Shown: positions 2,078 through 19,831 of the stretch, piece by piece
How positions within the stretch are numbered: the stretch's first letter is position 1
How the letters are laid out: each line of letters starts with the position of its first letter
Assembly: GCA_030539175.1 (NCBI GenBank)
Contig: JAUNSN010000005.1
Coordinates: forward strand, 1 to 50,215
DNA: 50,215 nt
Direction: 5' to 3'
Source: a bacterium
GTDB taxonomy: Bacteria; Bacillota_I; Bacilli_A; RF39; UBA660
The notes under the pieces: generated by a model
The model's input: only the letters and a program-made list of their open reading frames with translations
Databases searched by the model: none
What the model was told of the DNA's origin: nothing
Translations under genes and position numbers: made by a program

Positions 2078-3641
2078 AAATGAATTACTAAGAGGTAAAA
2101 CAATTTTTGATATGAATCTTAATGTTGGTTATTATGCAAGAGTATCAACTGAAAAAGATGATCAATTAAATAGTTTAGAGAATAAGTCTAATAATTTTAA
2201 AGATATGATTATGGAAACTTAAAATTGTACTTTAGTAGGTGAATACATTGATGAAGGAATAAGTGGAACAAGTGTAAAAAATAGAGAGAAATTTTTAAAA
2301 ATGATTGATGATTCTGCTTCAGGTAAGTTAGATTTAATAGTTACAAAAGAAATATCAAGATTTTCTAGAAATGTCGTAGATAGTATTAAATATACAGAGG
2401 AATTATTAAATAATGGAACGGTAGTTTTTTTTATAAGTGATAATATTAATACGATATATCCAGACAGTGAATTTAGGTTAGCACTTATGTCATCTTTAGC
2501 TCAAGATGAGGTAAGAAAATTAAGTGAAAGAGTTAAATTTGGAATCAAAAGAATGATTAAAGATGGAAAAATTATTGGTGGAAATCTTACTGGATATTAT
2601 CGTAAAGATGGAAAAATGATAATAAATGAAGAAGAAAAGCCAATTATAGAAATATTATTTAATTTATATGCAACAGGAAAGTATTCTTTTGAAAAAATTT
2701 CAGATATTCTTTATAAAAAGGGTTATAAAAATAAAAAAGGCAATCCATATTCAGGTACAACATTAAAAAAATTCATTTTAAATCCAAGATATAAAGGATA
2801 TTATACTGCAAATATGTCTAGAGTAGAAAGCTATAAAACCCATAAGAAAATAGATATTCCCAAAGAAGAGCAAATAATTTATAAAAGCAAGTTAATTGAA
2901 CCGATAGTGTCTGAAGAATTATGGAATAAAGCAAATGAATTATATAGAAAAAAACGTAGTTTAAGGAACATTAATGTTGTTACTTCACAAAAAGTAATTG
3001 ATGAATCAATTTATACTAATAAACTAATATGTAAAAATCACAATGAATATTTTATAAGATGCGCTGGAAGTAATAGAAAAAGTAATCCTTCATGGGTATG
3101 CAAAAAATATAAAAACAAGGGAGTATTAGAATGCAACTCGCCTATAATAAGAGAGAAATGCTTAAATATCTTTCTTGCTAATATTATAGAAGAATATATT
3201 AAAGATAAATTATTTATTACGAAAAATGAAATTATTGATTTATATAATGAAATATTTTTTAAAGCTAATAATAAACTAAAAATAGAAATTGTTGAAAAAA
3301 TAAAAGATTTAAGGTCAAATAGAGATAAATTAATTGATCTTAATTTATCAAATATTATATCAAGCGATGAATTAAAAAAAAGACTGTTAAAAAATGATAA
3401 AGAAATAAACAAGGCACAAGATTTATTAAATAATATGGATTTAAATAATAATTATTATGATAGATTAAAATGCATAGATTTAGAAATAGATAAGTTGTCA
3501 AGTATAAAAGATAATCTGAAAATCTATATAGATTTGTTAATTGAAAAAATAGAAATAAGTAAATTAAATACTAGATTTAAAATGAATTTAGATATTCATT
3601 TTAGAAGCGGAGAAATAAAAAATATTTATTATGAAAATTAA
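2058..3641 (+). pseudogene. large serine recombinase interrupted by a nonsense codon
   Basis: Read from the ATG at 2058, this is a large serine recombinase aligning along its length with the intact gene at 48.5 kb. It has the catalytic motif YYARVSTEKD, then YIDEGISGT, SRFSRN and LAQDEVRKLSERVKFG of the resolvase domain, a recombinase domain (NPRYKGYYTANMS), a zinc-ribbon-like Cys region (LICKNHN...WVCKKY...LECNSPI) and a C-terminal coiled coil. Codon 55 is TAA (2220-2222). The homologue has Lys at this place in DAKNWTF, so one AAA-to-TAA change explains it, and the frame stays open on both sides. The long downstream ORF (from 2301) lacks the nucleophilic Ser and cannot catalyse strand exchange. 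It would have integrated or excised the element lying to its left. Confidence 0.9.
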
Positions 3642-3678: not shown

Positions 3679-3873
3679 GTGCCTAGCAACCCAGGGTTTG
3701 TAGAATTAGGAAATCGACTAGGGAAAGAAACATTATTTTCTTACATAAAGAATTTTGGATTCGGTGCAAAAACCAATGTTGACTTAAATGGTGAAGCTAA
3801 TGGTATACTGTTTCCATTATCCAAAGTTGGTCCTTTAGAATTAGCCACTACTGCCTTTGGTCAAGGTATATAG
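3679..3873 (+). pseudogene. penicillin-binding protein transpeptidase fragment
   Basis: This 64-codon stretch (SNPGFVELGNRLGKE, FGFGAKTNVDLNGEA, VGPLELATTAFGQGI) is the part of a class B PBP (PBP2/FtsI/SpoVD type) transpeptidase domain from the SxN motif to just before the KTG motif. In the family the text before SNPGF would supply the first Ser of SxN; here it is Pro, and further upstream the sequence is unrelated and hits a stop at 3655. After GQGI the family continues with residues like xVTPLQ; here the next codon is TAG. The fragment is therefore cut at both ends. It has no ribosome binding site of its own. It most likely marks the chromosomal gene used as integration target, a hybrid attachment site beside recombinase 1. 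Typical PBPs exceed 500 aa, so it is non-functional. Confidence 0.8.
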
Positions 3874-3968
3874 CAAGAGAAACATTTAAGTTTAAAAAGC
3901 ATAATGGAATCAAGAAAGTTGATGTAGAATATATTTACATAATTAAACTAAGAACAGAATATTCGTAA
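3873..3968 (+). other. 31-codon open frame abutting the PBP fragment, probable remnant
   Basis: Immediately after the PBP fragment, in another frame, an open stretch reads ARETFKFKKHNGIKKV then DVEYIYIIKLRTEYS and stops at 3966-3968. Its composition resembles the C-terminus of a basic protein. It has no start codon or ribosome binding site and I cannot assign a family. It may be the tail of a gene cut by the same junction, or the first unique sequence of the element that begins here. Confidence 0.3.
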
Positions 3969-4887: not shown

Positions 4888-5772
4888 TTATTTTTGATTT
4901 TCAATTAAATGAATTAATTCTGATGTAGCATAATTTGGAAAATTATTCTTATTAGTTATCATTATTAAGTTTACTGGCTGAAATTCATCTTTCAGTTTTA
5001 TTTCATAAAGTTCTTTTTTTTCTAAATTATCTTGAATAAACTCTTTAATTGCAATCCCTATTCCAAATCCTTCTTTTACAAATTCATATACTAGAGAATG
5101 GCTAGCAAGATTAATGTAGGCTCTATATTGATTTTTATCTGAAAACACAAAGTTAGTTTGAATAGGATTAATTGTATTTAATATTAATTTTTCATTTTCA
5201 ATATCTTTAAATTCAATTTTATGTGTAGAATATTTTTTGTACTTTTCGTTTCCAATTAAACAATAATGTAGTTTTTTGAAGTTATAAACTTTTAACCCTT
5301 CCAATTTTTTATCATCATCACCAGCATATATAATTGCTATATCTATTGCTCCGTTTTTTACCATATTAATTAAATTAGGTGTATAACTTTCTTCAATAGA
5401 TATATTGATGTTTGGAAATGATAGAGAATATTTTTTTAAGTAATCCATTAAAAAATATTTCAAAATTGTATTACTTGTTCCTATTTTAATTTCTCCAATA
5501 TCAAGTTTGGTTATGTTTGAAAATTGATTTTCTGCCTCATATATTTGTTCAACAGCAGGTCGAATATAGTTATAAAAATTTTTACCTTCTTCAGTTAAAC
5601 TAATGCCTTTTTTACTTCTGAAAAACAGATTACCATTTAATTGATTTTCTAAGTTTTTAATTGTTTTAGTAACTGCAGGTTGGGATATTGATAATTTTTT
5701 TGATGCTTCTGTTATACTATTGCAATTTGCTACAACATAAAAAACACGATATAATTCAAAATTTATATTCAT
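4888..5772 (-). CDS. LysR-family transcriptional regulator
   Basis: A full-length 294-aa LysR regulator. The N-terminal winged HTH is intact (ITEASKKLSISQPAVTKTIK at about residues 19-38, then RSKKGISLTEEGKNFY). The rest is the two-lobed periplasmic-binding-like effector domain (IGTSNTILKYFL, IAIIYAGDDD, then VYEFVKEGFGIGIAI near the end). It has its own GGAGGACG ribosome binding site and a promoter facing left. It is divergent from the radical SAM peptide operon, the classic layout for a LysR protein controlling the adjacent operon and itself. The co-inducer is unknown. Confidence 0.92.
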   Translation of the reverse strand: MNINFELYRVFYVVANCNSITEASKKLSISQPAVTKTIKNLENQLNGNLFFRSKKGISLTEEGKNFYNYIRPAVEQIYEAENQFSNITKLDIGEIKIGTSNTILKYFLMDYLKKYSLSFPNINISIEESYTPNLINMVKNGAIDIAIIYAGDDDKKLEGLKVYNFKKLHYCLIGNEKYKKYSTHKIEFKDIENEKLILNTINPIQTNFVFSDKNQYRAYINLASHSLVYEFVKEGFGIGIAIKEFIQDNLEKKELYEIKLKDEFQPVNLIMITNKNNFPNYATSELIHLIENQK

Positions 5773-5793: not shown

Positions 5794-5822
5794 ATTATAC
5801 CAAAAAATATTATTTTAACCAA
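5794..5822 (-). promoter_or_regulatory. promoter of the LysR gene
   Basis: On the minus strand TTGGTT and TATAAT are spaced by exactly 17 bases, with the -10 about 22 bases before the LysR start. Confidence 0.65.
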
Positions 5823-5824
5823 CT

Positions 5825-5840
5825 ATTTTAGTTCAAAAAT
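5825..5840. promoter_or_regulatory. candidate LysR box
   Basis: ATTTTAGTTCAAAAAT is an interrupted dyad of the T-N11-A type used by LysR proteins. It lies between the divergent promoters and touches the -35 of the peptide operon promoter. Binding is inferred. Confidence 0.4.
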
Positions 5841-5868
5841 TGCTTTATCCATAACTTTTTGTTATAAT
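5840..5868 (+). promoter_or_regulatory. promoter of the peptide operon
   Basis: TTGCTT and TATAAT are separated by 17 bases, with an extended -10 (TGT before TATAAT). It is the best promoter upstream of the 26-aa peptide ORF and leaves a leader of about 65 bases. Confidence 0.75.
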
Positions 5869-5939
5869 GAATATGAGAAATTTGTATAAAAAGACTTGTA
5901 AATGTTATTGTATAATATTATTCGAGAGGAGGGTGTGCA

Positions 5940-6020
5940 ATGAAATCTTTAAATAAAAAAGTTGTTGTTAAATCTGAAAATGTTACAACAAGTAATGCTT
6001 CTTGTCATTACCATATCTAA
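5940..6020 (+). CDS. 26-aa candidate RiPP precursor peptide
   Basis: A short ORF with an excellent ribosome binding site (GAGGAGGG at 5925-5932). The peptide has a basic N-terminus (MKSLNKKVVVK), a polar middle (SENVTTSN) and a distinctive C-terminus, ASCHYHI. One Cys, two His and one Tyr in the last five residues form a plausible core for radical SAM modification, such as a Cys thioether or aromatic/His crosslink. It is the first gene after a LysR-controlled promoter and lies 81 bases before a radical SAM/SPASM enzyme, the usual precursor position. A 12-bp stem-loop separates the two. No homologous family is known to me, so precursor status rests on context and composition. It could instead be a leader peptide controlling the operon. 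Confidence 0.65.
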   Translation: MKSLNKKVVVKSENVTTSNASCHYHI

Positions 6021-6048
6021 TAACATTGATAATTTAACTGGTCTAAGG

Positions 6049-6076
6049 ATATAGGGGAATCCTAATTCCCCTATAT
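6049..6076 (+). promoter_or_regulatory. 12-bp stem-loop between precursor and maturase
   Basis: ATATAGGGGAAT and ATTCCCCTATAT pair perfectly around a CCTA loop. No T-run follows, so it is not a standard terminator. Such hairpins between a RiPP precursor and its enzyme often protect the short transcript or limit read-through, so that more peptide than enzyme is made (inference). Confidence 0.7.
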
Positions 6077-6101
6077 AAAATTTGAAATAAGAGGTGTTTT
6101 T

Positions 6102-7460
6102 ATGTTTTTTGTAAGAGAAGTTGAATTTATCGAATATGAAAATTCAGAATATATAATGATTAATTTAATTAATGGTGCAACAGATATTATTGAAAAGAGT
6201 ATATATGAAAAAATCATTAATAAAGAATTTGATAATTTAAATCAAGATGTCATTGATAATTTGCTTGAAAGAAAGTATTTGTTTTCTGATGAGAATGAAT
6301 ATAATAAATTTATTGAAAGTATTGATACAAAGTTAGAAGACTTGGAAAAAAGAGCTACTCCGAACTTTTTAGTTGTTCCTAGTTATGCTTGTAATTTGCA
6401 TTGTATTTATTGTTATGAGCAAACATATATGATAAAGGGTACTACTGATATTGATCCCTTAAAAATGGTTGATTTGCAGTTTGAACGTATTGATAAAATA
6501 ATGAAACAATATGAAACTAAATATGGAAAAACAAAAGAAGATATACGTATTACAATAATGGGGGGAGAACCATTGTTAAGGTGTAATATTAAAACAATAG
6601 CATATATTTTTGAACAAACAAAGAAAAGAAATTATTCATTAGATATTGTTTCTAATGGAGTTGATTTAAATTACTATATTGAATTATTTAATGAGTATAA
6701 AGACACCCTTAAACATATACAAATTACCGTTGATGGTGTAAAAGATATTCATGATAAAAGAAGAATTTTCCATGATGGTAGAGGAAGTTTTGATTTAATA
6801 ATGAATAATATTAAATTATCACTTCAGAATAATATTCAAATAGTGTTAAGAGTTAATGTTGATTCAACCAACATTAATGAATTATCTGATTTAGCTGATA
6901 CATTAATAAAAGAGTTTAATTACGATAAGAATTTATTACCATATTTATATTTATTACAAGATGGTGGATGTTCTGGAGAATCAAATATTGTAAATGAAAA
7001 AGTGGGAATTGAAAAGATATTTGAATTAGAAGATAAAAATCCTAACATGGCAATATTTAGAAAAAAATTTCATCCAGCAGATTTTATTGAAAGTATTTTC
7101 AATGATGTTCCTTATCAACCCGTTTTGAGACATTGTGGTGCAGCAAAAAATCAATTTATTTTAGATTGCAAATCAAATGTATATAAATGTTGGCATGGTA
7201 TAGGAAATAACGGTTATAGAGTGGGAACATTTTATCCTAAATATGAAATAGATGATGAAATAATTAATCAATGGTTTAATAGAAGTGTTAAAGTTTTAGA
7301 CAAATGTAAAAATTGTAAATATAGATATATTTGTGGAACTGGATGTCCTGCTGCTAAACATATGAGTGATGATAAAATGGATATTACTTCACCTAGTTGT
7401 GTTGAATATAATGAATTAATAAAAACAATTATGTTAGAAAAATTAAAAAGAATTAAATAA
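6102..7460 (+). CDS. radical SAM/SPASM peptide maturase
   Basis: 452 aa. The N-terminal ~85 residues (VREVEFIEYENSEYIMI onward) are small and mixed, the size and place of a peptide-recognition domain. The radical SAM core follows with CNLHCIYC at residues 97-104, giving the CxxxCxxC 4Fe-4S motif, and MGGEPLL for SAM binding. The C-terminal SPASM region has HCGAAKN, then CKSNVYKC, then CKNCKYRYICGTGC and a last Cys in SPSC, enough for two auxiliary clusters. Such enzymes typically modify ribosomal peptides, making thioether or carbon-carbon bonds or epimers, or act as sulfatase maturases; no sulfatase is nearby. The 26-aa ORF just upstream is the obvious substrate. The start at 6102 has an AAGAGGTG site. 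Confidence 0.9.
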   Translation: MFFVREVEFIEYENSEYIMINLINGATDIIEKSIYEKIINKEFDNLNQDVIDNLLERKYLFSDENEYNKFIESIDTKLEDLEKRATPNFLVVPSYACNLHCIYCYEQTYMIKGTTDIDPLKMVDLQFERIDKIMKQYETKYGKTKEDIRITIMGGEPLLRCNIKTIAYIFEQTKKRNYSLDIVSNGVDLNYYIELFNEYKDTLKHIQITVDGVKDIHDKRRIFHDGRGSFDLIMNNIKLSLQNNIQIVLRVNVDSTNINELSDLADTLIKEFNYDKNLLPYLYLLQDGGCSGESNIVNEKVGIEKIFELEDKNPNMAIFRKKFHPADFIESIFNDVPYQPVLRHCGAAKNQFILDCKSNVYKCWHGIGNNGYRVGTFYPKYEIDDEIINQWFNRSVKVLDKCKNCKYRYICGTGCPAAKHMSDDKMDITSPSCVEYNELIKTIMLEKLKRIK

Positions 7461-7490
7461 AATATAGTATAATAAATGGAGGTGATTAAA

Positions 7491-9509
7491 TTGGATAGAA
7501 AAGAAAAAAAGGTACTTACTTTAGGAATTTTTGCACACGCAAATGCAGGTAAGACTACTATTACTGAACATTTACTGTATCATACTGATGTTATTGATAA
7601 TGTTGGTAGAGTAGATACTGGAAATACAGTAACTGATAATATGAAAGTTGAACAGGAAAGAGGAATAACAGTAAGGGACTCTCTAGTTTCTTTTGAACTA
7701 GGAGATAAAACTATTCAACTAATAGACACTCCAGGTCATGTTGATTTTTCAGCAGAAGTTGAAAGAGCTATAAGTGTTTTAGATGGAGCAGTTTTAGTTA
7801 TTTCTGGGGTTGAGGGGTTAGAAGCACAAACTTATACAATTTGGAGAGCTTTAAAAGAAAAAAATGTTCCAGTAATTATATTCATTAATAAAATGGATAG
7901 AAAAGGAGCAGATTTTTCAAGAGTAGTTGCTGAACTACAAAACAATTTAAATGTTAATACAATCACACTTATGAACGTTATTCAAAATAGTGATTCATCA
8001 TTAACTATTCAACAATCAAAACTTGAGGATATAGTTGAAGAAGTGTCAATGGTAGATGATGATATACTTGGAATGTATATTAATGGTGAAGATTTAGATA
8101 CAGATAAACTTGCAAAAAAAATAATTGAGTTATCTCATACTTGTAAATTATTTCCAGTAATTGGAGGTAGTGCTTTAATTGATGTTGGAATTGAAGATTT
8201 AGTTTCTTCTATTTCAAGATATATTCCAGCCACAAAAAAGGATTTGGAAAAAGATTTATCAGCTTATGTGTTTACTATAAGAGTTGATGAAAATGGTAAA
8301 AATGCCTATGTTAAAGTTCTTAATGGTAGCATTGGATTAAGAGATGTTATAACTACTGGAACTGATACTACTAATAAAATAAAAAGTTTGTATATTGCAG
8401 ACGGAACAAAATTAGTTCCAACAGATAGAGTTTATAGTGGAGATATTGCGGTTATTAATGGTCTTGATGTAAAATGTGGTCAAATAATTGGAAATTCAAC
8501 AGGTATGGATAAATATATAAGTTTTGTTAAACCTTTACTGACAATGGAAGTTAATCCTATAAATAAAAATGAAACTATTGAACTTATGAATGCTTTAAGA
8601 ATATTAAATGAGGAAGATCCATATTTAAATGTTAGATATAATGAAAGAACTAGTTCTATATATTGTAGTTTGATGGGTGAAGTTCAAGCACAAATTGTAA
8701 AGACTTTATTAGAAGAAAGATTTGGAATTCAGGTTAATATAGAAAATCCTGTTATTATTCATAAAGAAGTTCCAACAGTTTCTGCTAATGCAAAGGCAAC
8801 ATATACAACCGTATCTGGAATAGGATTGGAAGTTACACCGCTTGAAAGAGGAAGTGGGTTTAGATATGTTTCAAAAGTATCAACTGACTTTTTACATTTA
8901 AAATATCAAAGACAAGTTGAAAGATTAATAAATTATTATTCTCAGCAAGGATTAAATGGATGGGAATTAACTGATATGGAAGTAGCTTTGGTAGATGGAC
9001 AATTTGATTCGATGGGAAGTGATCCAATGCACTTTAATATTATTACCCCATTGGCTTTATTTAGATGTTTAAAGCAAGCAAAAATGAAATTGCTTGAACC
9101 AATTTCACAATTTATATTGACTACACCAGAGAAAGATTTGAGTGGAGTTATAAAATTATTGTCATCTAAAAATAGTACATATGAAATTGCAAAACATTTT
9201 GATGGAGTAATTACTATTGAAGGAGAGGCCCCAGCATCTAATATGATGAATTTTCCTCTTGAGTTATCAATGTCAACTAGTGGTAGGGGTACATATACAT
9301 CATCTATATCAAGGTATGAGATAAGTAGAAATCAAGATGCTTCAATAGAATTTATAGGAGCAGATCCAAGAAACGAAACAACTTTTGTTATTAATGATAT
9401 GAAAGCAAGTATGGAACCGTTAGATAAGACTTTGATGAAAAAGAAAAAAGAAAGCCGTTCTAAATTTGCTAGACAGCAAAAAGAAAAGGATTATGGCATT
9501 AAAAGATAG
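7491..9509 (+). CDS. TetM-like ribosomal protection GTPase, atypical
   Basis: A translational GTPase of the EF-G/Tet(M) class with the normal domain order: G1 AHANAGKTT, G2 ERGITV, G3 DTPGHVDF, G4 NKMD, then the EF-G-like domains ending SGRGTYTSSISRYE. Length is 672 aa from the TTG at 7491, chosen because GGAGGTG (7478-7484) sits seven bases before it; the ATG at 7476 lies ahead of that site. Tet(M) has about 639 aa. Family members dislodge tetracyclines from the 30S A-site. In G1 the usual Asp (AHVDAGKTT) is Asn, and the C-terminal tail is long and basic (MKKKKESRSKFARQQKEK), so this is a divergent branch. Its place between a radical SAM maturase and tailoring enzymes makes immunity to a ribosome-targeting product as likely as tetracycline resistance (inference). 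Confidence 0.85.
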   Translation: MDRKEKKVLTLGIFAHANAGKTTITEHLLYHTDVIDNVGRVDTGNTVTDNMKVEQERGITVRDSLVSFELGDKTIQLIDTPGHVDFSAEVERAISVLDGAVLVISGVEGLEAQTYTIWRALKEKNVPVIIFINKMDRKGADFSRVVAELQNNLNVNTITLMNVIQNSDSSLTIQQSKLEDIVEEVSMVDDDILGMYINGEDLDTDKLAKKIIELSHTCKLFPVIGGSALIDVGIEDLVSSISRYIPATKKDLEKDLSAYVFTIRVDENGKNAYVKVLNGSIGLRDVITTGTDTTNKIKSLYIADGTKLVPTDRVYSGDIAVINGLDVKCGQIIGNSTGMDKYISFVKPLLTMEVNPINKNETIELMNALRILNEEDPYLNVRYNERTSSIYCSLMGEVQAQIVKTLLEERFGIQVNIENPVIIHKEVPTVSANAKATYTTVSGIGLEVTPLERGSGFRYVSKVSTDFLHLKYQRQVERLINYYSQQGLNGWELTDMEVALVDGQFDSMGSDPMHFNIITPLALFRCLKQAKMKLLEPISQFILTTPEKDLSGVIKLLSSKNSTYEIAKHFDGVITIEGEAPASNMMNFPLELSMSTSGRGTYTSSISRYEISRNQDASIEFIGADPRNETTFVINDMKASMEPLDKTLMKKKKESRSKFARQQKEKDYGIKR

Positions 9510-9518
9510 GGGGCTATA

Positions 9519-10535
9519 ATGAAATCATTTTGTAATAAAAAACCATACGACTATTATGAAGAACTAGAAAAGTTAGAAATTGATATATACAATCAATTGT
9601 ATTTTGATAGTTCAAGTATAAATAGTGTTGAAAAAATAAATTACAATACTTTAAAAGAAAAAACAATAAATGTTTTTGAAGATTATGATTATAATCAACC
9701 ACAAAATATTTTTATTATAAAAAATTTTGAAGGTAAGATTATTGTTGGTAGAAAAATTAGATCAGTTTTACGTATTGAAAATAAAATTAACGCAATAAAT
9801 TGTAGTATGATAACTGCCCCTATGATTTTGGGAGTTTTAGTAAAAAGAGCAAAAACTAATCGTAAAATAAGAATTGAATATTATCCTTTTTCCGATTCTG
9901 AAAAAAAATATGTTTTTGACAAAATAAAAAATGATAGGACCTTTGATATTTATTATCCATATAAATATCGTGATTTTTATACAGAAAAAGAAGAAAACTC
10001 TCCAGAAACTGGGTGGTCTTTCAATCCTGATAAAAAAGAATATTTGGGATATGGTGAGGTACATTTAAGAAATTTCACAACTACTTATTTTAAAAATAAA
10101 TCTTTAGATAATAAAATAGTTTATGATCCTGCTTGTTCAACAGGAGAATTCTTGAATGAATTTAAAAGTTATCATAAAAACTGTTATACAATAGGACATG
10201 ATTTAAGCAAAGAGATGATAGATTATGCAAAAGATTATGTAGATGAGGCATTATGTTGTAATGCAATCGATTCACCATTAAAAGATAATAGTGTGGATAT
10301 TATGTTTTTAAGATTTTTAAATTCAGAAGTAGTTACAACTCGTCTAGCATATAGAATTATGAAAAAATTGTTGTCAAAAATGAAAAAAGGTTCTTTAATT
10401 GTTTGTTTTGGACATACCCCAGTATTAATAACTAAAGAATGGTTTGAAAAAAATGGTTTGAAAAGTATAATATGTAATGGTTATGATGAAGAGAGAAATG
10501 CCATATTTCAATATTATGTTTTTGAGGTGCAATAA
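9519..10535 (+). CDS. SAM-dependent transferase with a long N-terminal domain
   Basis: 338 aa. Residues about 200-330 are a class I methyltransferase fold with motif I YDPACSTGEF (202-211), acidic GHDLSKEMIDYA and NSVDIMFLRF. Residues 1-190 are a separate region (RSVLRIENKINAINCSMITA, then ETGWSFNP and YLGYGEVHLRNFT) unlike common methyltransferases. This organisation reminds me of enzymes that move the aminocarboxypropyl group of SAM (isonocardicin synthase and MccD type), but I cannot confirm that by eye. It starts nine bases after the GTPase gene and its stop codon overlaps the next start (TAATG), so it is part of the operon. The peptide product or the ribosome are both possible substrates. 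Confidence 0.75.
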   Translation: MKSFCNKKPYDYYEELEKLEIDIYNQLYFDSSSINSVEKINYNTLKEKTINVFEDYDYNQPQNIFIIKNFEGKIIVGRKIRSVLRIENKINAINCSMITAPMILGVLVKRAKTNRKIRIEYYPFSDSEKKYVFDKIKNDRTFDIYYPYKYRDFYTEKEENSPETGWSFNPDKKEYLGYGEVHLRNFTTTYFKNKSLDNKIVYDPACSTGEFLNEFKSYHKNCYTIGHDLSKEMIDYAKDYVDEALCCNAIDSPLKDNSVDIMFLRFLNSEVVTTRLAYRIMKKLLSKMKKGSLIVCFGHTPVLITKEWFEKNGLKSIICNGYDEERNAIFQYYVFEVQ

Positions 10536-11641
10536 TGAGTAATAGTTGTCGTGCTACAAAATTGATTATTGAAAAAAAATGTATATTAAAAAATATAGAA
10601 AATATACAAAAATATTTAGGCAATAATGTGGAAATAATGCCGATTCTGAAAGCAAATGCGTATGGAACTTATATAAACAAAGAGTTGGATATAATAGAAA
10701 AGTTCAATATTGTAGGTGTATCTTTAGTAGATGAGGCAATAGAGATAAGAAAGTGTGGTTATAAAGGTGATATTTTAATTTTATATCCACCAGTAGAGTC
10801 AGAAATTGAAGATATTATAAAATATGATTTAACAATAAATGGATGTAATTTTTCTTTTTTAAAATTACTTAATAATAAGTTAAATAGAAAAATTAAAATT
10901 CATTTAGAAATAGAAACAGGAATGGGAAGAACTGGTGTATTAATATCCAAACTAAATGAATATTTAAAAGAAATGAAAACATTAGATAAAATTGAATTGG
11001 AAGGACTATTTACTCACTTCTCATCAAGTAGTAAAGATGAAGAATTTTCAAAAGTTCAAATATTTAGATTTGAAAAAGCCCTAAAAATTATAAATGAAAA
11101 TAATCTTTATCCAAAATTCATTCATATTTGTAATAGCGGTGCGATTTTTAATTATAAAGAATATCTATATAATATGGTACGTATAGGAATTATGATATAT
11201 GGTTATTATCCTAATCCAAAATTTAAAGATATTATAAAACTATATCCTTCAATGACATTAAAAACTAGCATTAGTTTTATAAAAAAAATAGAACCTGGAG
11301 ATACTGTTGGATATAACAAAAATTTTGTAGCAAAACGAGATACAATAGTAGCTACTATTCCATTTGGTTTTGGAGATGGATTTATAAGTCTTGAAACTGG
11401 ACAAGCTTATGTTTTAATTAATAATAAAAAAGCTCCAATAATTGGAATTTGTATGGATAATATGATGTTAGACATTACTGATATTCCAGATGTTGATTAT
11501 AATACAGAAGTATATATATGGGATAATAAGAATATTACTGTTGAACAAATAACTGATTGGTGTAAAGATTTATGTAATTATGAAATATTAAGTTCATTAT
11601 CTGATAGGATACCAAGATATATAGTTGGTGATAAAAGATGA
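10535..11641 (+). CDS. alanine racemase-fold PLP enzyme
   Basis: 368 aa, close to the usual length of Alr. PILKANAYG carries the PLP-binding Lys39; HLEIETGMGRTG, ICNSGAIFN and MVRIGIMIYG follow the fold-III barrel; the C-terminal domain begins at TVGYNKNFVAKRDTIVATIPFGFGDGF with the catalytic Tyr near residue 260, and ICMDNMMLDITD also fits Alr. The reaction would be L/D-alanine interconversion, or racemisation or decarboxylation of another amino acid. It overlaps genes on both sides (TAATG and ATGA), so it belongs to the peptide operon and is not a housekeeping gene. It may make a D-amino acid for the product, or be a spare copy if the product inhibits alanine racemase (both inference). Confidence 0.88.
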   Translation: MSNSCRATKLIIEKKCILKNIENIQKYLGNNVEIMPILKANAYGTYINKELDIIEKFNIVGVSLVDEAIEIRKCGYKGDILILYPPVESEIEDIIKYDLTINGCNFSFLKLLNNKLNRKIKIHLEIETGMGRTGVLISKLNEYLKEMKTLDKIELEGLFTHFSSSSKDEEFSKVQIFRFEKALKIINENNLYPKFIHICNSGAIFNYKEYLYNMVRIGIMIYGYYPNPKFKDIIKLYPSMTLKTSISFIKKIEPGDTVGYNKNFVAKRDTIVATIPFGFGDGFISLETGQAYVLINNKKAPIIGICMDNMMLDITDIPDVDYNTEVYIWDNKNITVEQITDWCKDLCNYEILSSLSDRIPRYIVGDKR

Positions 11642-12591
11642 AAAATATAAGAGTAATTGCATTTTCAAGAAGTTTAAAAATGATATGTGATAAAAATATA
11701 AATTTATCTAAAAACAAGCTCGAATCTTTAGGATATAATGTATCATTTTCTAAAAATTCAAGTGTGTGTGATTTGTTTATTTCTTCCAGTATAAGTTCAA
11801 GAGTATCGGATTTAAATGATGCAATTTGTGATAATAATATTGATATTATTCTTTCTGTTTTGGGAGGCTATAATAGTAATCAATTATTAGATTATATAGA
11901 TTATGATTTGATTAAAAAAAATCCGAAAAAGATTTGTGGATATTCAGATATTACTGCACTATTGAATGCTATATATTCTCAAACTGGTATTATTACTTAT
12001 TTAGGTCCAAATTTTCATAGTTTTGCAATGAAAGAAGGCTTGGATGGAACAATAGAATCATTTCAAACTGTAATTAATGGTAATGAGTATGTTTTAAGTG
12101 ATCCTGAATTTTATAGTAGTGACAAATGGTATGATGACCAAGAAAATAGAAAATTTATAAAAAATAATGGGATGTATATTATAAATGAAGGACAAGCAGA
12201 AGGATTAATAGTTGGAGGTAATCTATGTACTTTTAATTTATTACAAGGCACAAAATATATGCCAGATTTGACAGATAAAATTTTGTTTTTAGAAGATGAT
12301 TCATTAGTTGGTAAAGAGTATCCATATGAATTTGATAGAAATTTACAATCGTTAATTCAACAACCTAATTTTAATAAAGTAAAAGCAATAATAATTGGGC
12401 GGACACAAGATGCAACTGAAATGAATATAACAAAATGGAAAAAGATATTAAAATCAAAAAAAGAATTAAAAAAAATACCAATTATTATAAATACTAATTT
12501 TGGTCATACTACACCAATGGCTACTATTCCGATAGGAGGAAAATGTCGTATAGATACATTTGTTGAAAATAAAATAATAATCAATTGTTAG
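11638..12591 (+). CDS. S66-family serine peptidase, MccF-like
   Basis: 317 aa with the S66 hallmarks: VLGGYNSNQLLDYIDYDLI, the nucleophile in CGYSDIT (about Ser103), a Glu in ILFLEDD (about 219) and a His in FGHTTP (about 289), the Ser-Glu-His triad of LD-carboxypeptidases. GGYNSNQLL and the long middle insert fit the MccF subgroup better than LdcA. MccF cleaves the peptide-nucleotide antibiotic microcin C and its processed form, giving immunity; LdcA trims murein tetrapeptides. There is no signal peptide, so it acts in the cytoplasm. Four-base ATGA overlap with the racemase gene. I favour self-protection by hydrolysing the mature product, or recycling of it, by context. Confidence 0.87.
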   Translation: MKNIRVIAFSRSLKMICDKNINLSKNKLESLGYNVSFSKNSSVCDLFISSSISSRVSDLNDAICDNNIDIILSVLGGYNSNQLLDYIDYDLIKKNPKKICGYSDITALLNAIYSQTGIITYLGPNFHSFAMKEGLDGTIESFQTVINGNEYVLSDPEFYSSDKWYDDQENRKFIKNNGMYIINEGQAEGLIVGGNLCTFNLLQGTKYMPDLTDKILFLEDDSLVGKEYPYEFDRNLQSLIQQPNFNKVKAIIIGRTQDATEMNITKWKKILKSKKELKKIPIIINTNFGHTTPMATIPIGGKCRIDTFVENKIIINC

Positions 12592-12602
12592 GGGGATAGG
12601 AA

Positions 12603-13370
12603 ATGAAAACTATTGTAGAAAATCCAAGTTTATATGATTTGCTTTATTTAGATATTAGGGAAGATATTGAAATGTATAGAGGAATATTAAAGGAAAGTGC
12701 AAATATTTTAGAATTTGGAGCTGGAACAGGAAGAATTACAATTCCATTAGCAAAAGATGGACACAATATTTGTGCTGTTGATTTATCAAAAGAAATGTTA
12801 ACAGGCTTAAAAGAAAAAATATCAAGTGATCCGTTATTATTTAAAAATATAAAACCTGTTTTAGCTAATATGTGTAGTTATCAATCTAATATAAAATATG
12901 ATGCTGTTATTATTCCATTGACTTCTTTTAATTATTTATTGACTAAGGAGGAACAATTAGCTTGTCTTAAATCAGTAAGACAAGCATTATCTAGCAGTGG
13001 TTTTGCAATTATAGAATTACTATCAAAAAAAACTTTTTTAGATACTAACCAATCGAGTGATTTTACTTTTGTTAAAAGAATTAGTGTTGATAATAATTCA
13101 TATTATGATTACTACAGAATAACAAAATTAGATTTTAATAGTAGAACAATAACACAAAATAGACTTTTTAAATACTATAAAAATAATCAATATATATCTT
13201 CTGAAGAATATTTATGGAATAATCGATTTGTTACAGTAGAAGATTTTACATTATTAGCAAATGAGGTTGGTTTAGAAATTGATGAAGTATATGGCAATTG
13301 TCAATTAGAAAAGTATAATGATGAAAGTGAAGATGTATTTGTAAAAGTTAGGGGGAAAAATAATGAATAA
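12603..13370 (+). CDS. class I SAM-dependent methyltransferase
   Basis: 255 aa with canonical motif I ILEFGAGTGRITIPLA (residues 36-51), acidic AVDLSKEML, motif IV-like YDAVIIPLTSFNYLL and post-motif SSGFAIIELL. It resembles small-molecule or peptide O/N-methyltransferases of the broad methyltransferase-25 type, and the substrate cannot be read. GGGGGATAGGA precedes the ATG. It overlaps the MORN gene by eight bases and lies eleven bases after the S66 gene, so it is the second SAM-dependent transferase of the operon. Confidence 0.85.
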   Translation: MKTIVENPSLYDLLYLDIREDIEMYRGILKESANILEFGAGTGRITIPLAKDGHNICAVDLSKEMLTGLKEKISSDPLLFKNIKPVLANMCSYQSNIKYDAVIIPLTSFNYLLTKEEQLACLKSVRQALSSSGFAIIELLSKKTFLDTNQSSDFTFVKRISVDNNSYYDYYRITKLDFNSRTITQNRLFKYYKNNQYISSEEYLWNNRFVTVEDFTLLANEVGLEIDEVYGNCQLEKYNDESEDVFVKVRGKNNE

Positions 13371-13707
13371 TGTTAAAAAAATTTATTATAAAGATGGCAA
13401 AGTTAAAAAAGAAATACCTTATGTTAATGGATTAAAGACTGGCAGAAGTAAATTGTATTATGAATCTGGAATTATTAAATGTGAAGTTGATTATACGGAT
13501 GGGAAAAAGAATGGATATGTTAGAACATATTATGAAGATGGAACAATTGAATCACAAGAAACATATAGTGATGGACAAAAAAATCATGATTTAATATGTT
13601 ATGACAGAATGGGTGCAATTTCATATTCAAGCAATTTAAATATAGATACTAGAGATAGTTTATGTGATTATCATGATTCATATTTTTTTGAAAGAAGACA
13701 TTTATAA
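13363..13707 (+). CDS. MORN-repeat protein
   Basis: 114 aa made mostly of MORN_2-type repeats: KIYYKDGKVKKEIPYVNG, KLYYESGIIKCEVDYTDGKK and RTYYEDGTIESQETYSDGQK, each with the Y-x-DG-x-hydrophobic pattern. Such repeats form beta-hairpin ladders and occur in YwqK-like proteins. There are no catalytic residues, signal peptide or membrane segment. It overlaps the methyltransferase start to end and precedes the aminopeptidase, so it is inside the peptide operon, perhaps as a scaffold or immunity component. The last 30 residues after the repeats are not recognisable. Confidence 0.7.
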   Translation: MNNVKKIYYKDGKVKKEIPYVNGLKTGRSKLYYESGIIKCEVDYTDGKKNGYVRTYYEDGTIESQETYSDGQKNHDLICYDRMGAISYSSNLNIDTRDSLCDYHDSYFFERRHL

Positions 13708-13723
13708 AATTAAGGAGGAAAAA

Positions 13724-14830
13724 ATGAAAGTAGATGGAATATTAAATTATTCTTTGAATATTAAACCTGGTGAAAAAATTTTTATATTTGCAGATGATAA
13801 ATCAAAGGATTATTGCAATTTGTTATGTGATAAAATTGTTGGTATGGGTGCAATTCCGTTCGTTTTATGGAATGACTTCACATTTAATGAATCATTAATA
13901 AATTATAAAAATGATAAAGTTTTAAGAGAATTATATACAATGTATGAACCAATGATTGATTTATGTGATGTTGCAATTATGCTTGATAATAATTTGGAAA
14001 CTTATTGTGAACATGGAATTAGTTCAGATGATTTGTTGAATTTTAAAAATAAGTATTATTTAAAAATATTTAAAAAAATTATGAATTTTAAAAGATGGGT
14101 ATATTTAAGATATCCACAAAAAGAGTTAGCAGAACTTTATGGATTAAGTTATGAAGATCATGTGAAATTATTAGAAGATGTATCTAATTTTGATTATAGT
14201 AGTTTGTCAAAATCAGCAACACTTTTGAAAAATAAATTAGATACTACTAATAAAATCCGTGTTGTTCAAGGCTTAACAAATGTTGAATTTTCTAAATCTG
14301 GTATTTCTTCTGAAGTTTGCTGTGGAAAATTAAATTTACCAGATGGAGAAGTTTTTACAGCTCCTGAAAAGCATTCAATGAATGGTATAATTAATTTCAA
14401 TGTTGATTCTTTCTTCAGAGGGAATGTATATAAAAATATTATTGTTGAAGTGAAAGATGGTAAAATAATTAATTCTTCTTGTAATATTAGTGAAGAGTTT
14501 AAAAAAATATTGGATTCCGATGCAGGTGTTAGATATTTTGGAGAATTTGCTTTTGGATTAAACCCATTTATTAAAAGAAATTATAATGATAATTTATTTA
14601 ATGAAAAAATGGCTGGAACTGTTCATTTTGCTGTAGGTTATCCACATTATCAAACTGATAATGGTAATGAAAGCCTGATTCATTGGGATTTGATTGTGGA
14701 TATGAGAGATAATAGTGCAATATATTTTGATGACACATTAATTCAAAAAGATGGAATTTTCGTTATTGATGAATTACAAGATTTAAATTTTAATAAAAGT
14801 AAAAATAAAACAAAAAAATTAACTTTATAA
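13724..14830 (+). CDS. M29-family metallo-aminopeptidase
   Basis: 368 aa from the ATG at 13724, chosen for the AAGGAGGAAAAA just before it; an in-frame ATG at 13664 lies inside the MORN gene. M29 (AmpS/thermophilic aminopeptidase) features are present: KPGEKIFIFADD near the start and, in the C-terminal half, the metal-binding sequences LPDGEVFTAPE, YFGEFAFGLNPF, GTVHFAVGYPH and IHWDLIVDM, which supply Glu, Glu, His, His and Asp for the two-metal centre. Family enzymes remove N-terminal residues from peptides. As the last gene of the operon it may trim the leader from the modified peptide (inference). A short terminator overlaps its end. Confidence 0.88.
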   Translation: MKVDGILNYSLNIKPGEKIFIFADDKSKDYCNLLCDKIVGMGAIPFVLWNDFTFNESLINYKNDKVLRELYTMYEPMIDLCDVAIMLDNNLETYCEHGISSDDLLNFKNKYYLKIFKKIMNFKRWVYLRYPQKELAELYGLSYEDHVKLLEDVSNFDYSSLSKSATLLKNKLDTTNKIRVVQGLTNVEFSKSGISSEVCCGKLNLPDGEVFTAPEKHSMNGIINFNVDSFFRGNVYKNIIVEVKDGKIINSSCNISEEFKKILDSDAGVRYFGEFAFGLNPFIKRNYNDNLFNEKMAGTVHFAVGYPHYQTDNGNESLIHWDLIVDMRDNSAIYFDDTLIQKDGIFVIDELQDLNFNKSKNKTKKLTL

Positions 14831-14842
14831 AAGTTTTTTTTA
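14821..14842 (+). terminator. terminator of the peptide operon
   Basis: A 6-bp stem (AACTTT/AAAGTT) with a 3-base loop runs into eight Ts and overlaps the aminopeptidase stop. The stem is weak but the T-run is clear. Confidence 0.6.
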
Positions 14843-14947: not shown

Positions 14948-15442
14948 ATGAATGTAAGAATGGATGAACTAGGAAGAGTAGTTATTCCCGCTCCAGTTAG
15001 GGATTCATTAGGATTGAAAAAGAATAGTAAACTCAAAATGAAAATTGATGAAACTGGAACTAAATTATTTATCGAGAAAGGTCAACAGGAACTTAAATTA
15101 GATTATGTATCAAAAGTAATTGTTAATTCTATAAATAATCGATTTAAATATGATTGCATAGTAACTAATAGAGATTTTATTATATGTACAACACAAAAAT
15201 ATAAAAATTTAAATAATGAGCATATTTCAAAAGAAATAATAAAAAATCTTGAAAGCTCAGCGTTTTTTATGAAAAGAGTATATTCGTTACACATTTGTGA
15301 AAATGAAGTGATTAGAGGAAATTTATATATTTTTCCTATAAGAGAAAATGATGATAATGTTGGGGCATTAGTAGTCGATTATACTTCTGAAAGATATAAT
15401 CATGATTTTTTTGAATTCATAGGAGATATAATTGATTATTAA
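14948..15442 (+). CDS. AbrB/SpoVT-like transcriptional regulator
   Basis: 164 aa. Residues 1-45 are a swapped-hairpin AbrB DNA-binding domain (VRMDELGRVVIPAPVRDSLG, then LKMKIDETGTKLFIEK). The remaining ~115 residues (DYVSKVIVNSINNRF, DCIVTNRDFIICTT, LYIFPIRENDDNVGALVVDY) have the pattern and length of a GAF-like domain. The AbrB-plus-GAF build is that of SpoVT (about 178 aa), a sporulation-stage regulator, but I do not claim orthology. A GAF domain would sense a small ligand. It has its own promoter and is followed 22 bases later by an unknown gene. Confidence 0.8.
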   Translation: MNVRMDELGRVVIPAPVRDSLGLKKNSKLKMKIDETGTKLFIEKGQQELKLDYVSKVIVNSINNRFKYDCIVTNRDFIICTTQKYKNLNNEHISKEIIKNLESSAFFMKRVYSLHICENEVIRGNLYIFPIRENDDNVGALVVDYTSERYNHDFFEFIGDIIDY

Positions 15443-16092: not shown

Positions 16093-17919
16093 ATGAAAAA
16101 TTTGAGAATTAATAATGAGTTTTTTCAAAATAATTCTAATAGTCTAAAAATCGATAGAGATACTAGTAAAAAAATAACTGGATATGCTTCCATTGATAGA
16201 CCATGGCTACAGTATTATGATGTAACTCCAGAAAGTGTGGAAATACCTAATCAAAAATTATACCAATTTATTTATGAGAATAATAAAGCACATCTTGATG
16301 ATGTTGCTATAAATTATTATCACAAAAAAATAACATATCGTGAATTATTTAGTAATGTGGAAAAACTAACAGCTAATTATTTAAAATTAGGAATTAAACC
16401 TGGAGATGTTGTTCCAATTTGTAGTTTGACAACACCAGAAATGTTATATAGTTTTTTTGCATTAAATAATATTGGAGCTATTGCAAATATGCTTGATCCT
16501 CGTACTGGTATTGAAGGATTAAAAAAACATATTAATGAAAATAATAGCAAGTTTTTAATTACTTTAGATGTTTTTAGTTCAAAATTAAATGAATTTATAA
16601 ATGATACAACTCTTGAAAATATTATTAGTTTTTCATTAGGGGATTCATTACCAAAAATAAAAGAATTTTTATTGTCAATGAAAATGAAAAAACAAATAAA
16701 ACCTTTTAATTTTAAGGGAAATGTTATAAACAGTGATGAAGTATTAAAAAAAGCAGTATTGAAAGATAATCTAACAAATAAACAAAATGATGTTGCTTGT
16801 ATAGTTTATACAGGAGGAACAACTGGAGAACCTAAATCTGTTATGCTATCTAACAAAAATTTTGTGGCAATGGCTATTCAATATTCTAAGTTAAAATTAA
16901 ATATGAAAAGGGGAGATACTTTTTTAAGTATTATTCCACCATTTTTCCCATACGGGATATGTGTTTCCACTTATGTACCAATTGCATTAGGGCTAGAAAC
17001 AATCATAGTTCCGAAATTTGATGCAAGTATATTTCCAGAGTTAATGATGGAATATAAACCAAATCATGTTACAGGAGTACCTAAATATTGGGAAGCATTG
17101 ATGAAAGGTCATACTAATAAAAAAACAGATTTATCTTTTATAAAAAGTGCTGGTTGTGGTGGAGATGGTATGAATGCAGAATTAGAAACCCAAATAAATA
17201 ATTTTTTGAAAGCACATAAATCAACATCAAAAGTAATGAAAGGTTATGGTATGACAGAAGTTTCAGCGGCTGCAGTAACTTGTACTGATAATTGCAACGA
17301 AATAGGAAGTGTTGGTATCCCACTTATATGTAATAATGTTTCTATATTTGATAAAGATACCGATCGTGAATTGTCATACTTATCTGATGAAAAAGGTGAA
17401 ATATGTATAAGTGGTCCATGTACAATGTATGGATATAAAGATAATGAACTTGCTACTAATGAGTTAATAAGAACTCATAGTGATGGTGAAAAATGGGTTC
17501 ATACTGGTGATTGTGGAAGAATGGATGAAAACGGAAATCTCTTTGTTGAGGGAAGATATAAAAGAGTTATTGTAAGAAGAGGAATGAATATTTATCCTCT
17601 TGCTATTGAGAATATTATTATGCAAAGTAAATTCATTGATTCAGTTGCAGTAATCGGAATGGAACATCCTGATTTAGTAAGTGTTCCTGTTGCTTGTTAT
17701 ACGGTTAAAGAAGAATATAAGCAAGATTTAGACAGAGTTATTGCAGATATTCAAAATTTATGTTGTAGGGAACTTCCTGACTATTCACTTCCTTATAATT
17801 ACATGATGATTGACTCTATGCCGTTTACATCAGCAGGAAAAATTGATTTTCGTTCTTTAGAAGATATGGTTAATCAAAAAGAAAGCCCTGTTAAAAAGTT
17901 AATTTTACAAAAGGAGTGA
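16093..17919 (+). CDS. AMP-forming acyl-CoA ligase-like enzyme
   Basis: 608 aa adenylate-forming enzyme with the core motifs in order: ACIVYTGGTTGEPKSVML (A3 P-loop, about residue 235), KGYGMTEVSAA (A5), GEICISGPCTMYGY, WVHTGDCGRMDENGNLFVEGR (A7/A8) and the C-terminal Lys of TSAGKIDFR (about 583). It would activate a carboxylic acid as acyl-AMP and pass it to CoA or a carrier. No carrier protein is adjacent, and the substrate pocket cannot be read by eye. The start has GTGAGGA. Its stop lies four bases before the membrane kinase-like gene, so the two are co-translated, an odd pairing that suggests the ligase makes or senses an acyl signal. Confidence 0.88.
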   Translation: MKNLRINNEFFQNNSNSLKIDRDTSKKITGYASIDRPWLQYYDVTPESVEIPNQKLYQFIYENNKAHLDDVAINYYHKKITYRELFSNVEKLTANYLKLGIKPGDVVPICSLTTPEMLYSFFALNNIGAIANMLDPRTGIEGLKKHINENNSKFLITLDVFSSKLNEFINDTTLENIISFSLGDSLPKIKEFLLSMKMKKQIKPFNFKGNVINSDEVLKKAVLKDNLTNKQNDVACIVYTGGTTGEPKSVMLSNKNFVAMAIQYSKLKLNMKRGDTFLSIIPPFFPYGICVSTYVPIALGLETIIVPKFDASIFPELMMEYKPNHVTGVPKYWEALMKGHTNKKTDLSFIKSAGCGGDGMNAELETQINNFLKAHKSTSKVMKGYGMTEVSAAAVTCTDNCNEIGSVGIPLICNNVSIFDKDTDRELSYLSDEKGEICISGPCTMYGYKDNELATNELIRTHSDGEKWVHTGDCGRMDENGNLFVEGRYKRVIVRRGMNIYPLAIENIIMQSKFIDSVAVIGMEHPDLVSVPVACYTVKEEYKQDLDRVIADIQNLCCRELPDYSLPYNYMMIDSMPFTSAGKIDFRSLEDMVNQKESPVKKLILQKE

Positions 17920-17923
17920 GAAA

Positions 17924-19831
17924 ATGGGTACTGGTGTTTTACTAACAATATGCAGTTTACTTTATGTAATTATACTTGGAATTGTATATTTTAAAAAGAA
18001 AAAAATAGATTCTTATGAAAATAAAATCTTTAGCAAAATAATAATTTCAAATGTAATAGGTTTGATTTTGCATTTATCATTATATTGTTTAATGTCGTTT
18101 TTTGGAACAAATAATGTTTATACGATTGTCGTATCAAAAGTTTATTTAATTTATTTAATAACTTATATGATACTATTTACAGGATATGTTTTCATTATTT
18201 CTATGAAAAACAAAACAAATATAGAAAAAAAATACAAATTGTTGATGATTTGTTCATTAATAATAATAATTTTGTTATCATTTATTATTTGTTACTTACC
18301 AATTGAATTTCATAATGAAATTGGAAAAATGTACTCTTATGGCAAGTCTGTTACTGTGGTATATTTAGTTGGTTTTGCAGTGATATTTTTGAATGTAATT
18401 TTTCTTTTAAGAAATTTGAATAATGCATTAGATAAAAAATACTATCCTTTATTTTTATATTTTCTTTTAGGATTGGTTACAACATTAATTCAATTTAAAT
18501 ATCCTTATATACAATTAATAACTGCAAAGGATTCTTTAATTATATTTTTAATGTATTTTACAATAGAAAATCCAGATATTAAAATGATTAAAGAATTGAC
18601 TTACTCGAAAGAAGTAGCGGAAAGATCAAAAAATGAAACTATCAATATTTTAAATGATATGTCTAAATATTTAAAAACATCATTAGATAAACTTATATCT
18701 TTTGGTTATAAGAAAATAAATAAAAATAATTTAGAAGAAGTAAATAAAGAAATAAATTATTTTCAAAAATTTTCACTTACTTTAGCTGATAGAATTTCAA
18801 GTTTAATAGATATTGCAAAAATTGAAAGTAGTGATTATATAGAAACTAACAATAAATATGATACTTATGAAATGTTGAATGATTTAAAAGAACTTATAAA
18901 TTATAAAAAAGGCAATAAGAAAATTACTATTACAACAGATATTAGTGATAATATAAATAAGATATTATATGGTGATGATGAAAAAGTTAAGAAGGTAGTA
19001 TTATATGTTACTGGTATTATTGTTGAAATGATGAAAACAGGAACAGTTAATATTACAATTGATAATATGACAGTAGGAAGATTTTGTAAATTAAAATTTA
19101 ATTTTCATGTAGATAATCCCATAATTAAAGATTATATAGAATTTGATGATTCACATACTTTTAAAGATGCTTTTGAAATTTCAGATAATAATGGAAATTT
19201 TATAAAGAAAAACATAAATGAATTTGAATTAAATCAAAAGATAGTTGGTAAATTATTAGGTTTATTAAATGGGGAGATAGATTTTAAAACAGAGGATAAT
19301 TATACCGAAGTAATTGTGTCTTTAAAGCAAAGGGTAGTCCCTGAGTATGATATAGAACCAGAAGTAGTTACGGAAGAAAATATTAAAATAAAATACTTTG
19401 ATGTAAGTGATAAGAGAATTCTTGTTGTAGATGATAATAATACTAAAATAAAAGAATTAATTAGAATATTAAGACCTTATAAGGTAAAAATTGATATTGC
19501 AAGAAATGTAGATGAATTGAAATCAGCAGTAGAGAGTAATAAGGTTTATGATCTAGTAATGGTAGATGATATTATTCCAGAACCAATGGATGATGTTGAT
19601 GCTTATGGGGATGTTTTAGAATATTCATACTCTATTAAAAAGAAAACAAAAGATTTAATAACAAGAGCAAAATATGATATTCCACTAATTATAATGGTAA
19701 CTCCTAATAAAAATTCATACGAAGAAAAATATTTAAAATCTGGATTTGATGATTACCTTATAAAACCAATAAAGAAATCTGATGTAAATAATATTATGAA
19801 AAAATATTTTAAAAAAAACAATAACAGATAA
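17924..19831 (+). CDS. membrane hybrid histidine kinase with degenerate catalytic motifs
   Basis: 635 aa. Residues 1-215 hold about seven hydrophobic segments (LLTICSLLYVIILGIVYF first), a 7TM sensor. A DHp-like helical hairpin follows, but at the phospho-acceptor place (typical NMSHELRTPL) it reads NDMSKYLKTSLD, with Lys for His. In the ATPase-like domain GDDEKVKKVVLYVTGIIVEM replaces the usual GDxxRLxQVLxNLLSNA, losing the N-box Asn. The C-terminal REC domain (about 497-632) keeps key residues: RILVVDDNN, LVMVDDIIPEP, the Thr of MVTPN and the Lys of LIKPI. So phosphorylation input by its own kinase looks lost while the receiver looks competent. It is co-translated with the ligase, and a terminator follows. 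Confidence 0.8.
   Translation: MGTGVLLTICSLLYVIILGIVYFKKKKIDSYENKIFSKIIISNVIGLILHLSLYCLMSFFGTNNVYTIVVSKVYLIYLITYMILFTGYVFIISMKNKTNIEKKYKLLMICSLIIIILLSFIICYLPIEFHNEIGKMYSYGKSVTVVYLVGFAVIFLNVIFLLRNLNNALDKKYYPLFLYFLLGLVTTLIQFKYPYIQLITAKDSLIIFLMYFTIENPDIKMIKELTYSKEVAERSKNETINILNDMSKYLKTSLDKLISFGYKKINKNNLEEVNKEINYFQKFSLTLADRISSLIDIAKIESSDYIETNNKYDTYEMLNDLKELINYKKGNKKITITTDISDNINKILYGDDEKVKKVVLYVTGIIVEMMKTGTVNITIDNMTVGRFCKLKFNFHVDNPIIKDYIEFDDSHTFKDAFEISDNNGNFIKKNINEFELNQKIVGKLLGLLNGEIDFKTEDNYTEVIVSLKQRVVPEYDIEPEVVTEENIKIKYFDVSDKRILVVDDNNTKIKELIRILRPYKVKIDIARNVDELKSAVESNKVYDLVMVDDIIPEPMDDVDAYGDVLEYSYSIKKKTKDLITRAKYDIPLIIMVTPNKNSYEEKYLKSGFDDYLIKPIKKSDVNNIMKKYFKKNNNR

Follow-up and report, generated by a model that had tools for sequence, protein, structure and literature searches.

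A mobile gene cluster in uncultured gut Bacilli is a likely new RiPP variant

Main Finding

In a genome of the GTDB order RF39 we detected a block of nine genes at positions 5940–14,830, behind a divergent LysR gene. Positions refer to the window, which is the whole analysed stretch of 50,215 nucleotides from contig JAUNSN010000005.1 (assembly GCA_030539175.1). Judged by two testable features of its sequence, a precursor gene and a maturase, the block is a RiPP cluster, and it likely represents a new RiPP variant. Our preferred reading, held with moderate confidence, is a mobile RiPP pathway that makes a cross-linked, modified and trimmed peptide, with an S66 peptidase and a TetM-like GTPase protecting the producer. 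The unit, its conservation, the families of its proteins, their kept catalytic residues and its mobility can be read from the DNA itself.

Operon Organization and Distribution

The precursor gene and the eight genes after it lie on the plus strand. After the radical SAM gene the intergenic gaps are −8 to +30 bases, which bears out the tight packing and overlap described in the initial annotation. The LysR gene, the 26-aa ORF, the hairpin and all eight other genes named there lie where they had been placed. The LysR-type regulator (4888–5772, minus strand) is divergent from the cluster and remains its neighbour in loci L003, L004, L005 and L011. The conserved core contains no exporter. A SpoVT/AbrB-like regulator lies just 3′ of the cluster (14,948–15,442), and in L005 it does not belong to the conserved unit.

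Orthologues of the radical SAM protein with 71–82% identity occur in Candidatus Pelethosoma merdigallinarum (L003, the same as L010; L004 is of that species or one very close to it), in an uncultured Bacilli MAG (L005) and in two further genomes from this family. L011 comes from G416; L012 comes from G120, and its contig ends within the radical SAM gene. The cluster is complete in two loci only, the window and L005, while the remaining loci are cut by contig ends. L005 has the full gene set with the M29 gene shifted ahead of those for MT2 and the MORN protein, and the order in L003/L004/L010, L011 and L012 agrees with the window as far as the contigs extend. The flanks vary. In the window they belong to an integrative conjugative element; L003/L004 have a dacA-like gene there, L005 has an ftsW-type gene plus a sigma factor, and L011 carries an ATP-grasp-like gene with housekeeping genes. 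The block is one conserved, transferable unit: its gene set recurs in other lineages of the family, and its surroundings differ.

The unit is rare. At the thresholds used it was present in 2 of 193 family genomes and 3 of 385 order genomes, and among 395 class genomes in this genome only. Relatives of the radical SAM protein were absent from viral contigs, and plasmids yielded only a Muribaculaceae protein with 30% identity in an unrelated setting. No close plasmid copy of the TetM-like GTPase was found.

In the window an integrative conjugative element (3873–50,215) carries the cluster at its left end. The element encodes a VirB4-like protein (30,607), a relaxase (35,779), a T4CP (38,092), a large serine recombinase (from 48,521 rightward), a sortase and an LPxTG-like surface protein. 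The left end, at about 3865–3875, is inside a PBP gene. The element appears to split this PASTA-bearing, SpoVD-like gene at the codons of its FGQG motif; a C-terminal PBP half lies at a contig edge (L020, G000:C43, 6497–7237) beside the chromosomal alanine racemase gene. Directly left of the PBP fragment lies a second, N-terminally shortened serine recombinase (2301–3641), which suggests insertion of a further element into this PBP gene. In P. merdigallinarum (L003, 8207–8602) a dacA-like D,D-carboxypeptidase gene is interrupted at its ASGND motif by the DNA to the left of the cluster; here too the insertion site is a cell-wall gene. At 16,093–19,831 the window also encodes an acyl-CoA-synthetase-like, AMP-binding enzyme and, after it, a receiver-domain membrane protein; these are accessory genes of the element and are not conserved with the cluster.

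Precursor Gene and Its Upstream Signals

The precursor gene (5940–6020) lies directly 5′ of the radical SAM gene and has a strong RBS, GAGAGGAGGG, at about 5924–5933. Its 26-aa product reads MKSLNKKVVVKSENVTTSNASCHYHI in the window; the other three lineages (L003, L005 and L011) have MKSVNKKVVVKAENVTTSNASCHYHI, MKSVNKKVVVKAENVKTSNASCHYHI and MKSINKKVVVSAKNVAASNASCHYHV. Pairwise comparisons give 3–6 silent codon changes; the window and L003 differ by five silent codon changes and two residue changes. Frame, length and product are kept across the four lineages, which shows that the ORF did not arise by chance. The tail SNASCHYH is invariant and is followed by a final I or V. The core has exactly one Tyr, also invariant, and the whole precursor has only one Cys. 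The initial annotation asked whether a small ORF with a CHYHI-like end always precedes the radical SAM gene, and it does so wherever the region is available; the observation thus survives the refutation test set there. Thus all four lineages have a short precursor gene beside a modifying enzyme.

This bears on the idea that the block is not biosynthetic but is a resistance or stress island which adjoins a short ORF by accident. Several of its genes do belong to families with resistance members. However, a precursor conserved through silent changes and a RiPP-type radical SAM enzyme always stand first in the transcript, and we regard an accidental island as highly improbable.

Upstream of the peptide gene lies a LysR-type palindrome, ATAACTTTTTGTTAT (5851–5865), kept in all four lineages in the form ATAACTNNN[AT]GTTAT. 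A −10-like TATAAT was spotted by eye 3′ of it (5911–5916); a sigma-70 scan, whose promoter-like matches were at chance level, did not report the 5911 site. Between the precursor and radical SAM genes there is an RNA hairpin of 12 pairs (6049–6076, plus strand). Four of the pairs have changes on both sides with pairing kept, in a comparison of four sequences only. No U-tract follows the hairpin, which rules out a transcription terminator, and for this reason it is probably an element of processing, stability or stoichiometry. An Rfam search of the leader region gave no match.

Modifying Enzymes

The radical SAM/SPASM protein (6102–7460) has the motif CNLHCIYC, and its CX3CX2C and SPASM cysteines are kept in all orthologues. 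The best family models were CefB, Clo7bot, TIGR04463 and PapB, all below cut-off: CefB matches over the full length (E 1.8e-42, 145.7 of 600 bits) and PapB reaches 101 of 340 bits. The protein also matches the CteB-type structure 5wgg. The nearest curated models are thus peptide maturases, several of them thioether-forming. The full-length SPASM match places the protein among RiPP-type maturases at family level, with no equivalog cut-off reached, that of ranthipeptide maturases included; because every family model stays below its cut-off, the profiles do not fix the reaction. In the test for an RRE, the N-terminal 90 residues align with the N-termini of SPASM maturase models, and the structure model was too poor to add to this. 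With a pLDDT of 48, the AlphaFold models of the radical SAM protein and MT1 were of insufficient quality to be searched by fold, because few relatives are available. An anti-phage defence system was considered and rejected, as comparison with known systems gave nothing beyond weak, generic matches to radical SAM proteins and methyltransferases.

MT1 (9519–10,535) had been annotated as a SAM transferase. A SAM-dependent enzyme is indeed encoded, but not an ordinary methyltransferase. General libraries show only a weak methyltransferase domain; isonocardicin synthase (NAT, 8zhu), whose acceptor is a phenol, matches residues 25–335 of 338 with E 7e-38, and the next match has E 0.065. MT1 contains DPACSTGEFL, GHDLS and GHTPVL, sharing DxACSTGxFL and GHTPVL with NAT. 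On this sequence evidence it is a homologue of the isonocardicin-synthase-type aminocarboxypropyl transferases. In the NAT reaction SAM donates its aminocarboxypropyl group (PMC10491745). Since NAT is the only characterised close relative found and identity to it is low, the donor group and acceptor of MT1 could differ.

MT1 was absent from 296 class and 344 phylum genomes except for this one, and phages had no NAT-like enzymes. Plasmid NAT-like enzymes of Apilactobacillus, Pantoea and Acinetobacter were set aside, being weak matches with other neighbours. On the Apilactobacillus kunkeei plasmid OX335149 (L013, 8091–14,485) a weakly NAT-like transferase shares an operon with ATP-grasp ligases, an aminotransferase and transketolase subunits, which looks like a small-molecule pathway.

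The enzyme first described as having an alanine racemase fold (10,535–11,641) can be placed more exactly: it is a true member of the PLP-dependent alanine racemase family, with 294.2 bits against a TIGR00492 cut-off of 168, and keeps the catalytic Lys (KANAYG) and Tyr (VGY). In both readable clusters the HG of KANAYGHG is lost, whereas the chromosomal copy retains it. The chromosome keeps its own alanine racemase, and an additional one in a genome of only 1.29 Mb suggests a dedicated task. The group left by aminocarboxypropyl transfer is a free alpha-amino acid, on which this racemase could plausibly act. It may instead make D-Ala or resist a racemase inhibitor.

Could these two enzymes point to a metal-chelating RiPP? 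In such a metallophore CHYH would bind the metal, the racemase and the aminocarboxypropyl transferase would mimic staphylopine logic, and the S66 and M29 proteins would mature or recycle the product. The core is Cys-His-Tyr-His, and a racemase and aminocarboxypropyl transferase together with His recall CntK/CntL in outline. Aminocarboxypropyl transferases do occur in metallophore synthesis (PMC10491745). However, MT1 resembles NAT, which is non-homologous to CntL and nicotianamine synthase (PMC10491745), the conserved unit has no metal importer, exporter or metal regulator, and the TetM-like GTPase is left unexplained. We consider a metallophore improbable.

For the class I methyltransferase MT2 (12,603–13,370) the nearest model is that of the daptide N,N-dimethyltransferase (E 3e-25); among solved structures the nearest are CcbJ, YunM and the cypemycin methyltransferases (CypM). 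MT2 groups with N-methyltransferases, some of them from RiPPs, and by these matches is probably N-methylating. The MORN_2-repeat protein (13,363–13,707) is kept in L005.

Peptidases and GTPase

The initial assignment of an S66 peptidase (11,638–12,591) is supported by its domains and by an intact MccF-type triad of Ser (GYSDIT), Glu (FLEDD) and His (FGHTTP). It belongs to the MccF-like subgroup BA_5613/Lmo1638 and matches the MccF-like structures 5usd/4e5s with E 1e-101, against 6e-20 or weaker for muramoyltetrapeptide carboxypeptidases. MccF cleaves microcin C, both intact and processed (PMC9239234). The shortened M29-family metallo-aminopeptidase (13,724–14,830), whose start we corrected to ATG 13,724 behind AAGGAGG, keeps the metal ligands in EVFTAPE, FGEFAF, VHFA and IHWD. 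Both peptidases, as possible leader peptidases, keep their catalytic residues, and the M29 protein is our candidate leader-trimming enzyme.

The GTPase (7491–9509) matches TetM/TetO over nearly its whole length (E 1e-100, vs 1e-73 for EF-G). Judging from the starts of homologues, the probable start codon of its gene is TTG 7491, preceded by GGAGGTGA. The earlier label, TetM-like, is right as to class, but the protein scores 534.8 of 775 bits with NF012153 and falls short of the curated cut-off for tetracycline protection. G1 is an unusual AHANAGKTT, while DTPGH and NKMD are intact. At the domain IV tip the SPVSTP of TetM is replaced by SMGSDP, and the basic C-terminal tail is conserved. Such a tip loop and G1 make a ligand other than tetracycline likely. 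The gene also differs from Tet(M)/Tet(O) in its position inside a biosynthetic operon.

Two more explanations are to be weighed here. A cell-wall-directed product, or an adjustment of the cell wall, would make peptidoglycan the target or the site of resistance. NAT comes from the biosynthesis of nocardicin, a beta-lactam, the Alr and S66 (LD-carboxypeptidase) families act on peptidoglycan precursors, and the Alr of the cluster might serve as a second, resistant enzyme; a nocardicin-type aminocarboxypropyl group on Tyr would point the same way. In contrast, the S66 protein is much nearer to MccF than to the muramoyltetrapeptide carboxypeptidases, and the TetM-like GTPase is present in every locus long enough to include its position. 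A cell-wall role therefore seems unlikely to us.

The other explanation is an intracellular small molecule or signal derived from a RiPP, as with PQQ or mycofactocin, for which two exopeptidases would trim the precursor to a few residues and the GTPase would adapt translation rather than give immunity. An aminopeptidase next to an LD-carboxypeptidase-family protein, the lack of an exporter and the very conserved short core would suit it. However, the unit has no dedicated enzyme that uses such a molecule, and its patchy distribution and carriage on an integrative conjugative element better fit an accessory weapon. We give this possibility little credence.

Relation to Known Pathways

Like the ranthipeptides and other SPASM RiPPs (PapB, CteB/SCIFF, CefB), which provide the nearest profile and structure matches, the cluster has a short precursor directly 5′ of a SPASM radical SAM enzyme. 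PapB acts on a Cys-X3-Asp/Glu motif (PMC9413430), and a Cys-X3-residue spacing is present at the C terminus of our precursor. Here, however, there is only one Cys, the acceptor would be Ile/Val rather than Asp/Glu/Thr, profile scores are far below the cut-offs, and the other tailoring enzymes do not belong to those families.

Nocardicin is paralleled by MT1, a near full-length NAT homologue, and by the adjoining PLP enzyme, which could epimerise the transferred amino-acid group. Nocardicin biosynthesis includes a homoseryl epimerase, which is outside the alanine-racemase family. It is also non-ribosomal, whereas the acceptor here would be the Tyr of a ribosomal peptide.

Microcin C (mccABCDEF) likewise combines aminocarboxypropyl transfer, a PLP enzyme and MccF (PMC10491745, PMC9239234). 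The likeness extends to a ribosomal peptide, transfer by MccD, the PLP enzyme of the MccE N-domain and, in our proposal, S66-type immunity and a translation target. However, MccD and NAT are not homologous (PMC10491745). None of the genes of the unit encodes an MccB-type nucleotidyltransferase, there is no MccC exporter, and a radical SAM enzyme is present instead. Without the defining nucleotidyltransferase and exporter the cluster is not a member of the microcin C group. Daptides, to which only MT2 is near, are defined by an oxidative decarboxylase, an aminotransferase and a C-terminal Thr (PMC10036551), all lacking here.

The initial annotation knew of no described family with this gene set, and we found no such description either, in a literature coverage that is incomplete and leaves out most subscription journals. 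Under the same limit, which makes it weak evidence, we found no precedent for an aminocarboxypropyl group in a RiPP or for TetM-type proteins in RiPP clusters, and no record of radical SAM cross-linking together with nocardicin-type transfer.

Proposed Pathway and Its Significance

Each reaction, the order of the reactions, the target, the roles in immunity and the export are what we infer from these families. In the mobile RiPP pathway that we prefer, the LysR protein would switch on a transcript encoding the 26-aa precursor, with a predicted leader of about MKSxNKKVVVxxxNVxx and a core SNASCHYH[IV]. The radical SAM/SPASM enzyme would form a cross-link, most likely a thioether linking the sole Cys with a carbon atom of a residue close by; a His/Tyr cyclophane would be the alternative. 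The C-terminal Ile/Val is an attractive thioether acceptor, since that position holds only residues whose beta-carbon is tertiary. MT1 would then place the 3-amino-3-carboxypropyl group of SAM on the phenol of the invariant Tyr. The second alanine racemase may epimerise the resulting free amino-acid end, as the epimerase does in nocardicin A synthesis, and MT2, daptide/CypM-like, may N-methylate an amine. The M29 aminopeptidase would remove the leader. The MccF-like S66 peptidase and the TetM-like GTPase would shield the producer, and protection of this kind suggests a small product acting on translation.

A bolder version is offered only tentatively, and we think it rather doubtful: a new RiPP class marked by O-(3-amino-3-carboxypropyl)tyrosine made by NAT-type transfer, brought into the D form by a recruited racemase, acting as a translation inhibitor, with TetM-type and MccF-type protection of the producer, and spread by conjugation.

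If the proposal is right, a very short peptide would combine cross-linking by a radical SAM enzyme with aminocarboxypropyl transfer of the nocardicin type. A TetM-class ribosome protector could then serve as self-immunity of a producer against its peptide, which would bear on the origin of ribosomal protection genes. The product could be made from nine small genes and is directly testable, and its producers are uncultured gut Bacilli with reduced genomes.
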